NCBI GenBank assembly: GCA_016193065.1
Contig: JACPSX010000192.1
Span: forward strand, 1 to 5,467
Direction: 5' to 3'
DNA: 5,467 nucleotides
From: Candidatus Tectimicrobiota bacterium
Lineage (GTDB): Bacteria > JACPSX01
The notes under the pieces were generated by a model. The model made no database searches, was not told where the DNA came from, and saw only the letters and a list, made by a program, of their open reading frames with translations. The stretch's first letter is position 1, and every line of letters starts with the position of its first letter. Of this stretch, positions 3,103-5,467 are shown piece by piece. The translations under genes were made by a program, and so were the position numbers.

Positions 3103-3807
3103 TTACAGACCGTAGTGCCAGGGGTAACCCTGCCGGTCCCAGTACCCTCCGAGATTCACCTCGGAAAGTCCCAGAAGGACAATCCCCTTTACGTTCTTGT
3201 AGCCGATCTTGGTGGGAGCAATGAGACGCAACGGGCCGCCGTGCTCGGGAGTCAGAGGCTTGTCACTCATCTCGTAGCAGAGAAGCGTCTGAGGATGGTA
3301 GGCGGTCTCAATGTCCAGAAAATCAAAATAGTCGTCGGCCGCGAAAAAAAAGACGTAGCGCTCCTTGGGAGTGGGACGGAGCGTCTCCAAGAAGGCCGAC
3401 AGCGGCGCTCCCCCCCACTTCGCAATGGCGCTCCAGCCTTCCACGCAGCGCAGCTCGGTGATTTGGGTCTTCTTGGGCAATGCCTGGACTTCCCGCAGGA
3501 AGACAGGACGATTGTCTTCCAGCAAAACCCCCTGCCCCGCAAACCGCACCCGGCCCACTTGCAGGAAATAGGTGGCAGGGTCCATGACCGGCGTGAAGGA
3601 ATAGTAATTATTCTTGAAATCAGGCGTGACGTCTTCCGGTGAATACTCCCTGGCGAGCCGGCTCTGGCTGAAAAGGGTTCCTCCCACTTTATCGTTTCGT
3701 TGCGCAAACCAGTCAAACACCCGGTTGAGAACCGGGCTCTCTTCCACCTTGGCGCACCCGGCCAGCAGCAAGGTTCCGGCCAGCTTCATAAAGGACCTGC
3801 GCTTCAT
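3103..3807 (-). CDS. Tat-exported lipoprotein molybdopterin oxidoreductase (sulfite oxidase/MsrP-like)
   Basis: This 234-residue molybdenum-cofactor enzyme belongs to the sulfite oxidase fold. The N-terminus has the twin-arginine motif RRSFMK (3-8) directly followed by a lipobox LLAGC with Cys18, so it should cross the membrane folded through Tat and be anchored by lipid. The cofactor-binding cysteine is Cys121 in ITELRCVEGWSAIAKWGG, equivalent to the RCVEAW motif of YedY/MsrP. Downstream, HPQTLLCYEM (171-180) and EHGGPLRLIAPTKIGYK (188-204) are the family's conserved cofactor-contact segments, and it ends GYWDRQGYPWHYGL. It is shorter than E. coli MsrP (about 330 residues), lacking much of the N-terminal region, and has no dimerisation or heme domain. 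The ATG at 3807 overlaps the upstream cytochrome stop as ATGA, with GGGGGG 6 nt ahead; longer in-frame readings run into the cytochrome gene. The partner cytochrome b probably exchanges electrons with it. The substrate (methionine sulfoxide, another S- or N-oxide, or sulfite) cannot be told from sequence. Confidence 0.9.
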   Translation of the reverse strand: MKRRSFMKLAGTLLLAGCAKVEESPVLNRVFDWFAQRNDKVGGTLFSQSRLAREYSPEDVTPDFKNNYYSFTPVMDPATYFLQVGRVRFAGQGVLLEDNRPVFLREVQALPKKTQITELRCVEGWSAIAKWGGAPLSAFLETLRPTPKERYVFFFAADDYFDFLDIETAYHPQTLLCYEMSDKPLTPEHGGPLRLIAPTKIGYKNVKGIVLLGLSEVNLGGYWDRQGYPWHYGL

Positions 3808-4664
3808 GGAATTCCCCCCATGACCTCTGGAGAAGAGGGCGCGCCCGGTTGCGGTTCCAGCAACTCTGGGGTCTCTGCGGTGTCCGGGCTCTCCACGCTC
3901 TCTTCCCTGTCTTCTTTCTGTTTTTTCCAACCCGTAATGATCGACAGGAAGTTGGACCAGCCGGAAAGCGCCACCATGATCAGATGAACCACAAGAAAGC
4001 CGGCAAAAATCCAGACCAGGAGGAAATGCCACAGCCGGGTATATTGAAAGCCTCCAAAGAACTCCGTCAGCCAGCCGGCCTGTACGGGCTTGTACAGGGC
4101 GACCCCCGTCAGAACGCTGAGGATCCCCGCCGCCACGATGGCGGAATAGGCAAATTTTTGTAAGGGGTTGTACTTCCCGTACGGCGGCGGTTGCTTGCGG
4201 AGCCGCATGTAGTACAGGAGCATGGGGCCCATGGCCCGGACGTCCGGGGGCCGGAGCACAAGACCCCGCCATTGCCCGCTGGCCGCCAGATAAAAAACGT
4301 AGAGCAGACCCGTGGCCGTGTAGAGCCACATGAACGTGTAGTGCCAGCGCAGGCCCCCTGCCAGCCAGCGGCCCAGTGTGTAGCGGTCATAAAACCCTTG
4401 GGAAAACCGGACGGGAACCAGGGTATCCCAGGAAAACTCCCGGAGGCCAAAACTGACGGGCGGCCGCAAGTTGATGACGGCGGGAGCCTCGTAGCCCAGC
4501 GACGGGTGGACGCGCAGGTTCAGGTTGAAGGCGGGATAGGCCCAGTAGATGCGCAGCCCGCTGAGAACCAGGATGGCGAGCGTAAACAAGTTGATCCAGT
4601 GGCTGATGCGGATGACCAGGGGGTGCTCGTAGCGCCTGCCCCCTTTTTGAGTTCCTGGCCTCAT
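3804..4664 (-). CDS. Cytochrome b561-type membrane subunit (Ni/Fe-hydrogenase/thiosulfate reductase cytochrome b family)
   Basis: This 286-residue four-helix di-heme cytochrome b probably links the quinone pool to the periplasmic molybdoenzyme encoded next. Helices lie near 20-43, 107-127, 170-192 and 211-236. Likely heme ligands are His22 (ISHWINLF), His108 (RWHYTF), His213 (RLWHFLLVW) and His227 (VVHLIMVAL), the usual pattern for this family. PYGKYNPLQKFAY (161-173) is the family's YN-x-x-QK-x-x-Y signature before helix 3. It is not the six-helix ferric-reductase-type MsrQ that normally serves MsrP. A cytoplasmic tail of about 40 residues after helix 4 is rich in Glu, Pro and Ser and has no recognised function. 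The ATG at 4664 follows AGAGGGGGG with about 5 nt spacing from GAGG. The stop overlaps the molybdoenzyme start, so the two are translationally coupled. A weak extended -10 on the minus strand (TGCTAGCAT, 4729-4721) may be its promoter. Confidence 0.88.
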   Translation of the reverse strand: MRPGTQKGGRRYEHPLVIRISHWINLFTLAILVLSGLRIYWAYPAFNLNLRVHPSLGYEAPAVINLRPPVSFGLREFSWDTLVPVRFSQGFYDRYTLGRWLAGGLRWHYTFMWLYTATGLLYVFYLAASGQWRGLVLRPPDVRAMGPMLLYYMRLRKQPPPYGKYNPLQKFAYSAIVAAGILSVLTGVALYKPVQAGWLTEFFGGFQYTRLWHFLLVWIFAGFLVVHLIMVALSGWSNFLSIITGWKKQKEDREESVESPDTAETPELLEPQPGAPSSPEVMGGIP

Positions 4665-4789
4665 GCCCCCCTCTTGCCTTACCAGGATTCCCGGCAGTGA
4701 TGGAATGCAATGCAGAAAACATGCTAGCAGAGCCTGCCGGGGGGGGCCATAGTTTTTTGCCGAACGGCACTTCGGGATCTTGGATGGAA

Positions 4790-4798
4790 TGATACAAT
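4790..4798 (+). promoter_or_regulatory. Extended -10 promoter ahead of the structured segment
   Basis: TGATACAAT on the plus strand is an extended -10 element: TG, one base, then TACAAT with five of six consensus positions. No convincing -35 box lies 16-18 bp upstream, which is tolerated for extended -10 promoters. Transcription would start near 4805, inside the left arm of the outermost inverted repeat, and read through the folded segment into the gene at 5016. Confidence 0.5.
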
Positions 4799-4800
4799 CT

Positions 4801-5007
4801 CCCTAATCCGAAATTCCCTGTCGGGGTCATCCGGCGTTGGCCCGCGGGTGGCGTCGGGGATGCCTCCGCAGAGCCGCGCGAAAGTGGCACCCTCGTCAGG
4901 GTGACGTAGCGCGGTTCGAGGAGGCGCCCCGGGTACCCGCCTGGCGGGTGTCAGGACCCGCGGGCCAATGGCGCAGATCAACCAGGTTGCTTTTCTTCGG
5001 ATTAGGG
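4801..5007 (+). ncRNA. Large self-complementary segment: structured leader or 6S-like RNA candidate
   Basis: The 207-nt segment folds end to end. CCCTAATCCGAA (4801-4812) pairs perfectly with 4996-5007. TTGGCCCGCGGGT (4837-4849) pairs perfectly with 4956-4968. Inside these, GGGG 4856-4859 pairs with 4927-4930, GCCTCC 4862-4867 with 4920-4925, GAGCCGCGC 4871-4879 with 4909-4917 (one G-U), and CACCCT 4888-4893 with 4898-4903 around CGTC. A side hairpin, ACCCGC-CTG-GCGGGT (4935-4949), sits in the 3' strand of the bubble just inside the 13-bp helix. A rod with a GC-rich closing helix, a central bubble with a 3'-side hairpin and a long apical arm is how 6S RNA is built, but I recognise no conserved 6S sequence and see no terminator after it. 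The plus strand is favoured by the promoter at 4790-4798 and the gene at 5016. The outermost helix runs into the likely ribosome site AGGG (5004-5007), so it may instead be a translational control leader. A small inverted-repeat element is a third possibility. Confidence 0.5.
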
Positions 5008-5015
5008 TCTAGCCC

Positions 5016-5467
5016 ATGAACACCTTGGAAACCCTCACGGCCTCGCTTGTCGGACTTAAATCCGGAGAGAACGAAACCCTTTTCCGGTTCGTCAGCTCCC
5101 AGACCCCTCGTCTGGACAGAGCGCCTCTTTACCAGGCTCGAGCTCCGATCTTAACCTTGGAGAACTTGTGGTCCCTTCGCCAGGAGAAAGAAAAAGCGGC
5201 GGGAGAAGAAAATTTCCTCTTCGATCTGCTCGAGGCAGCTCTCTTGCGACTTTTGGAAACGGCCAGGGTCACCCCTTTTCGCGACGAAATCCTAAATTCG
5301 TTGGCCGGCCCCGGAATCGAACTTCCGGAGGAGAAGGGAAATTTTTGGCAGGCCTTCTCGATCTTGCGCGAACTCGAACAGGGGCAGGCCCGCCACCGGA
5401 TCGGCGTCCTCATGGACCGGCAGGCCTCCCGGTCCATGGATCTTTGCGCCCGGCTTCTGGAGGGCCG
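5016..5467 (+). CDS. Unrecognised helical protein, N-terminal part (partial)
   Basis: The frame is open from ATG 5016 to the window edge, giving 150 residues that begin MNTLETLTASLVGLKSGENE. A TAG at 5010-5012 lies in frame just upstream and no other start intervenes, so the start is well supported. AGGG (5004-5007) lies 8 nt ahead. There is no signal peptide and no membrane helix. The segment is rich in Leu, Glu, Arg and Ala and looks mainly helical and soluble, with amphipathic stretches near 48-85 and 110-145. I do not recognise the family. The loose pattern of charged helices with E-Q-G-Q-A-R-H-R recalls the helical region ahead of the catalytic domain in M3-type oligopeptidases, but no catalytic motif is within the window, so this is only a guess. 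It is divergent from the cytochrome operon and would be transcribed with the structured segment as its leader. Confidence 0.7.
   Translation, partial: MNTLETLTASLVGLKSGENETLFRFVSSQTPRLDRAPLYQARAPILTLENLWSLRQEKEKAAGEENFLFDLLEAALLRLLETARVTPFRDEILNSLAGPGIELPEEKGNFWQAFSILRELEQGQARHRIGVLMDRQASRSMDLCARLLEG

Follow-up and report, generated by a model that had tools for sequence, protein, structure and literature searches.

Genomic context and fold of the element

The window (the whole 5,467-nt stretch of Candidatus Tectimicrobiota DNA that was analysed) has two groups of minus-strand genes: an ABC transporter set of phosphonate type, with permease, ATPase and binding protein (405-2910), and a cytochrome b561-like gene with an adjacent ORF that may be its molybdoenzyme partner (together 3103-4664). 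A 207-nt segment lies in the divergent intergenic region between the cytochrome b561-like gene (3804-4664, minus) and an ORF whose ATG, at 5016, is 8 nt past the right arm of the segment. This ORF is truncated by the contig end, and it has no match in Pfam and no significant match in NCBIfam.

The segment is closed by a perfect 12-bp outer helix (CCCTAATCCGAA, 183 nt between the arms) and a perfect 13-bp inner helix (TTGGCCCGCGGGT, 106 nt between the arms), which are properly nested (Table 1). The minimum free energy of the fold is -126 kcal/mol, compared with -92.8 +/- 4.9 kcal/mol for dinucleotide shuffles (z = -6.8), and none of 200 shuffles was as stable. These closing helices had been described in an earlier note on this DNA, and their pairing is as given there. 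Within the hairpin tip, ACCCT (4889-4893) pairs with AGGGT (4898-4902), and CGTC (4894-4897) may in addition pair with GACG (4903-4906).

Table 1. Positions of the element and its parts within the window.
Feature	Position	Strand	Remarks
Whole element	4801..5007	+	Dispersed MITE-like hairpin copy; orientation from the core; about 22 genome copies with the same ends; fold z = -6.8
Left terminal inverted repeat CCCTAATCCGAA	4801..4812	+	Perfect partner at 4996-5007; same ends in other copies
Right terminal inverted repeat TTCGGATTAGGG	4996..5007	+	Pairs with 4801-4812; same ends in other copies
Left flank ATCT	4797..4800	.	Site of the 4-bp target duplication in other copies; in the window copy differs from the right flank
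Right flank TCTA	5008..5011	.	Site of the 4-bp target duplication in other copies; in the window copy differs from the left flank
Inner 13-bp helix, 5' side	4837..4849	+	Partner at 4956-4968
Inner 13-bp helix, 3' side	4956..4968	+	Partner at 4837-4849
Conserved core (R1 model)	4839..4966	+	About 112 nt where the nested palindrome is lacking; covariation in relatives
Hairpin tip GCGCGAAAGTGGCACCCTCGTCAGGGTGACGTAGCGC	4876..4912	+	Corresponds to the loop AGUGGGACCC ... GGGUGACGGAG, kept across Rokubacteria
Nested 20-bp dispersed palindrome GGGTACCCGCCTGGCGGGTG (side hairpin)	4931..4950	+	117 genome places; missing here in other copies

The earlier note had also proposed a promoter at the left arm. 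The string on which this was based, TGATACAAT, does occur at 4790-4798, yet no site emerged when 4660-5100 was scanned for sigma-70 promoters. As that note had anticipated, no known RNA class could be assigned, since there is no credible Rfam match. No 6S or riboswitch model matched, even with E values up to 10 on a short stretch, and permissive thresholds gave only miRNA/snoRNA-type and other chance matches. Inspection by eye also spoke against group II intron domain V and hammerhead-like motifs, as the consensus breaks needed pairs or is without the conserved strings.

Dispersed copies in the same genome

A DNA search of the window's own genome (G000; 2.9 Mb, a fragmented assembly that is 86% complete) gave 40 matches, which represent about 22 copies, 70-96% identical, as well as short matches to a second repeat. 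The copies have inverted ends in common. Because they start and end at the equivalents of 4801 and 5007, these positions are the true ends of the unit. Identical 4-mers are present on both sides in 7 of the 12 copies with both ends readable (CTAA and TTAA twice each, GTAA, CCAA and TTAG, read by eye; most are not CTAG). The flanks of the window copy form no perfect duplication, and a duplication, if ever present, has therefore decayed. The element has no coding capacity. DNA searches found the repeat in none of 40 sampled genomes of the same domain and no copies on plasmids; viral contigs gave no core match and one loose match, which is inside an ORF. The assemblies of G000 and of a Rokubacteria genome considered below (G114) often break in or beside copies (L018, L024, L193, L290, L294 and other contig ends), and copy numbers are therefore probably underestimates.

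The side hairpin reported in the earlier note does exist, but it is a copy of a separate repeat, a 20-bp palindrome that recurs at 117 genomic places (none for the reversed control). This palindrome has the form GGGTACCCGC-N3-GCGGGTG, with stem variants GGGTACCCGG...CCGGGTG, and is also lodged in the large element, where the loop that it occupies varies from copy to copy (L013, L015, L021, L026, L027 and L028).

The conserved core in Rokubacteria

Within the GTDB 220 set, one other genome, a groundwater Rokubacteria assembly, shares a 31-mer of the core, in a single copy from which the outer arms are absent. This copy (L112:708-819, minus) fills most of the gap between two ORFs. A covariance model of the core (R1) led to more distant members in the Rokubacteria phylum set, which align on strongly kept motifs (GCGGGUGRC, AGUGGGACCC, GGGUGACGGAG and GACAGGACCCGC) and have freely changing stems. 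A second model (R2) matched at least 29 of 387 genomes, all within the 95-genome Rokubacteria-phylum set. With 150 candidates scored in each genome, the copy numbers are lower bounds: at least 88, 38, 24, 22, 16, 12 and fewer per genome, and at least 10 in the window's genome. The E-values of both models are rough, and the assemblies are incomplete. A literature search on Rokubacteria repeats of this kind found nothing relevant.

Among 105 aligned matches, 93.6% of cells pair, double changes occur at 44 of the 50 pairs, and the covariation score is 0.408 (0.135 shuffled, 0.042-0.068 with partners slid), figures that lean towards the model because the alignment was fitted to its structure. A structure-free MAFFT alignment of 12 sequences has double changes at 30 of the 50 pairs. 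The rod-like structure recognised in the earlier note is thus genuine and kept by compensatory changes in relatives. In the orientation of the window's plus strand there are 313 G-U pairs and 71 A-C mismatches; the counts are 65 and 32 in the non-redundant set once two nearly constant U-G pairs are left out. The difference is not significant on the independent stems of two genomes described below (8 vs 3). The overall excess of G-U would fit folding of one strand, as RNA or ssDNA. In Rokubacteria the core stands between different ends, described below, and its predicted fold is kept by pervasive compensatory change. Judged from the sequences, the core of about 110 nt is older than the repeat family of the window.

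Terminal repeats, target sites and a candidate transposase

In G114, at least two different end pairs surround the same core. A-type ends are CGCGCATTATTCACGAACGG ... TTCGTGAATAATGCAGG, bordered outside by YTAR, and B-type ends are TGGCNNTCCAACTAATCTCGCC ... AAGTTGGAGTCGCA, bordered by CTAG. The flanking 4-mers of A-type copies in Rokubacteria are identical in 27 of 42 cases, whereas shuffling of the right flanks gave a mean of 15.5 and never reached 27 in 20000 shuffles. A-type ends occur at 127 places in G114 (0 for the reversed control). Paired ends are separated by about 205 bp, and by less in derivatives missing part or all of the hairpin tip. Such deletion derivatives (L282-L300) have 61-172 bp between the A-type ends, and the same short form can be found at different loci (L284 and L285; L282, L298 and L300). 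The short forms may themselves move, or the same deletion may have arisen repeatedly. No transposase was identified between A-type ends among the G114 places examined, which held only deletion derivatives and single ends.

We identified an IS1380-family transposase in the window's genome (370 bits against the cut-off of 180; NF033539), the only DDE_Tnp_1 gene found there. The element that carries it (contig C242, L302:302-3824) starts with CCCGGATTATTCACGAACG (L302:302), preceded by CTAA, and its right end is CGTTCATGAATAATGCAGG (L302:3806-3824), followed by CTAG. Both ends are 2-4 mismatches from A-type element ends, and these are the only two stretches of the 9-kb L302 piece within 4 mismatches of the A-type ends tested. 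The right end is the same as that of one G114 copy (L195). An ISKra4-family element, with 21-bp inverted ends and the direct repeat CAGCCATCTG, has inserted into the IS1380 element, which measures about 1.7 kb outside this insertion. There is only one copy of the IS1380 element, and its flanks, CTAA and CTAG, differ at one base. In IS1380A of Acetobacter, a 4-bp TCGA is beside both ends in 2 of 4 copies, the exact boundary being ambiguous.

Because the ends of the IS1380 element match A-type ends, a transposase of this type is probably the mover of the A-type elements. The hairpin element, unlike members of the IS1380 family, encodes no protein, and no counterpart of its core was seen in the IS. 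The window element has ends of its own (CCCNAATCCGAAATTC) that differ from the A-type, and searches of G000 for a transposase with them found no partner. The genes neighbouring two singletons of the right end (C39 and C174) are for an ABC transporter and other functions, with no transposase. Thus, the assignment of IS1380 to the window copy is an extrapolation, and the link suggested by matching ends is direct for the Rokubacteria A-type only.

Stem turnover and alternative explanations

Two genomes (G091 and G090) contain 17 copies in which the stems are nearly unrelated between copies (52% identity vs 46% shuffled) and are 96% self-complementary over 38 nt, with tips that are 94-97% identical. 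In most of these copies the outer internal loop is now a perfect helix and the tip loop is intact. Hairpins of these genomes at L220-L235, L158 and L182 have nearly perfect stems of up to ~60 bp, unrelated between copies, and all end in a 70-nt tip that is almost constant; two at L222 are in opposite orientation within 300 bp. The stems do not appear to be copies of neighbouring genes, as the longest shared strings are at chance level.

Stems of this kind would reflect either very strong selection on the fold or arm-from-arm copying during replication. If copying is the cause, the compensatory changes are mainly a DNA effect, with one arm of the palindrome templated by the other and without selection on the folded product. 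We consider this explanation less likely than not. It would account for stems that are unrelated and yet self-complementary, for the loss of the outer internal loop, and for the lack of a significant G-U excess on independent stems. It does not readily account for the tip loop, as unpaired purines and nearly constant U-G pairs are kept there in all G091 and G090 copies, for the imperfect stems with shared loops that G114 copies retain, or for the predominance of G-U over A-C in the full set. The kept tip loop would speak for a function of the tip.

Copies are mostly at the 3' ends of genes (27 convergent, 45 co-directional and 8 divergent, with 17 inside predicted ORFs; the counts rest on crude gene calls), and those in relatives adjoin different genes in all orientations. 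Stable hairpins at 3' ends could have been domesticated by the host as terminators, stabilisers or RNase sites of mRNA, and maintained because they benefit the host, not as a selfish unit. The G091 and G090 stems, which change fully yet stay paired, agree with this, and a role in mRNA regulation for MITE transcripts from downstream of genes has been raised in a review (PMC2229807). However, a choice of stop codons as targets could by itself account for the 3' bias, tip-less deletion derivatives persist, copy number is very uneven (0 to at least 88 per genome), and the window copy itself is between divergent genes. We consider domestication unlikely.

It is very improbable that a Y1 (RAYT) transposase moves the element via ssDNA as a REP-like palindrome, with the fold recognised on one strand. 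There are two PF01797 genes in the window's genome, and the one-strand G-U bias would be expected, but neither gene is flanked by copies of the element or of the 20-bp palindrome. The long inverted ends with 4-bp target duplications also argue against this mechanism; to our knowledge, Y1 transposition does not produce target duplications. REPs, which are extragenic, palindromic and of high copy number like the element, are 20-40 bp in length and belong to GTAG/CGTC superfamilies (PMC3733652). The 207-nt unit is far longer, and it is the separate palindrome at 4931-4950 that is similar to REPs in size.

Transcription from the TGATACAAT site could make the segment a single-copy regulatory RNA, of the 6S (SsrS) type or another, or a leader of riboswitch kind for the ORF that follows; the earlier note had pointed to 6S RNA and to such a leader. 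These readings can practically be set aside: the length of about 200 nt, rod shape and strong fold recall 6S RNA, and the position just 5' of an ORF a leader, but the element is present as about 22 scattered copies (the kind of result that the note itself held to count against a discrete RNA) with mobile-element ends and target duplications, lies beside different genes in all orientations and mostly at their 3' ends, and has neither an Rfam match nor a sigma-70 site.

A probable mobile hairpin with a conserved tip

We conclude, with a probability of about 0.85, that the segment at 4801-5007 is a hairpin repeat that a DDE transposase mobilises. The window element is a mobile hairpin of MITE-like, non-autonomous kind, and its folded core is unusually old and well conserved. 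As in MITEs, the copies are dispersed and non-coding, with common terminal inverted repeats and, in many of them, a target duplication fixed at 4 bp (not perfect in the window copy). IS1380 provides the candidate autonomous partner for Rokubacteria A-type ends, and none was found for the ends of the window copy.

Bacterial MITEs with RNA-like folds include ERIC/IRU, RUP, Correia/NEMIS and YPAL/RU-2 (review PMC2229807). The element resembles them in being non-autonomous, no longer than ~200 bp and intergenic, with terminal inverted repeats, target duplications and stem-loop folding. Unlike the known bacterial MITEs, it is GC-rich and its duplications are 4-bp YTAR, not TA. It also differs in that one core occurs between several end pairs and across lineages, and in its massive covariation with kept internal loops, the stems being fully replaced in some genomes.

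A mechanism can be proposed for the mobile hairpin. The inverted ends would be cut by a trans-acting DDE transposase, most likely an IS1380-family enzyme, and the unit would insert at CTAG/CTAA/TTAG-like sites, often overlapping stop codons. CTAG contains a stop codon on both strands. Thus, we infer that after a 4-bp duplication each of the two neighbouring genes can still end in a stop codon; with a stop on both sides, the insertion would be tolerated. The tip would then act as a folded strand in the polarity of the window's plus strand and would help the element to persist. It could do so in RNA form, at transcript 3' ends, or as ssDNA in mobilisation. We put forward this role in persistence tentatively, seeing the arguments as close to evenly balanced. 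Our best guess is that the tip provides a signal in folded, single-stranded form, RNA or ssDNA, for a selfish element whose insertion at stop codons is tolerated. More doubtful still is the broader idea of a class of mobile hairpins, common throughout one phylum and also found in another lineage, that would swap transposon ends around a tip functional as RNA or as protein-recognised ssDNA, with arm-templated turnover of stems in some hosts.

The repeat is apparently an undescribed structured element of poorly known bacteria, and is very abundant, with at least 88 copies in one genome. One branch is tied to a named transposase family, and stems have been replaced wholesale around a nearly fixed tip. 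For annotators, the element is a caution against labelling such hairpins as 6S RNAs or riboswitches. It also allows a direct test of an old question, namely if bacterial hairpin MITEs are under selection as RNA, under selection as ssDNA, or under none.
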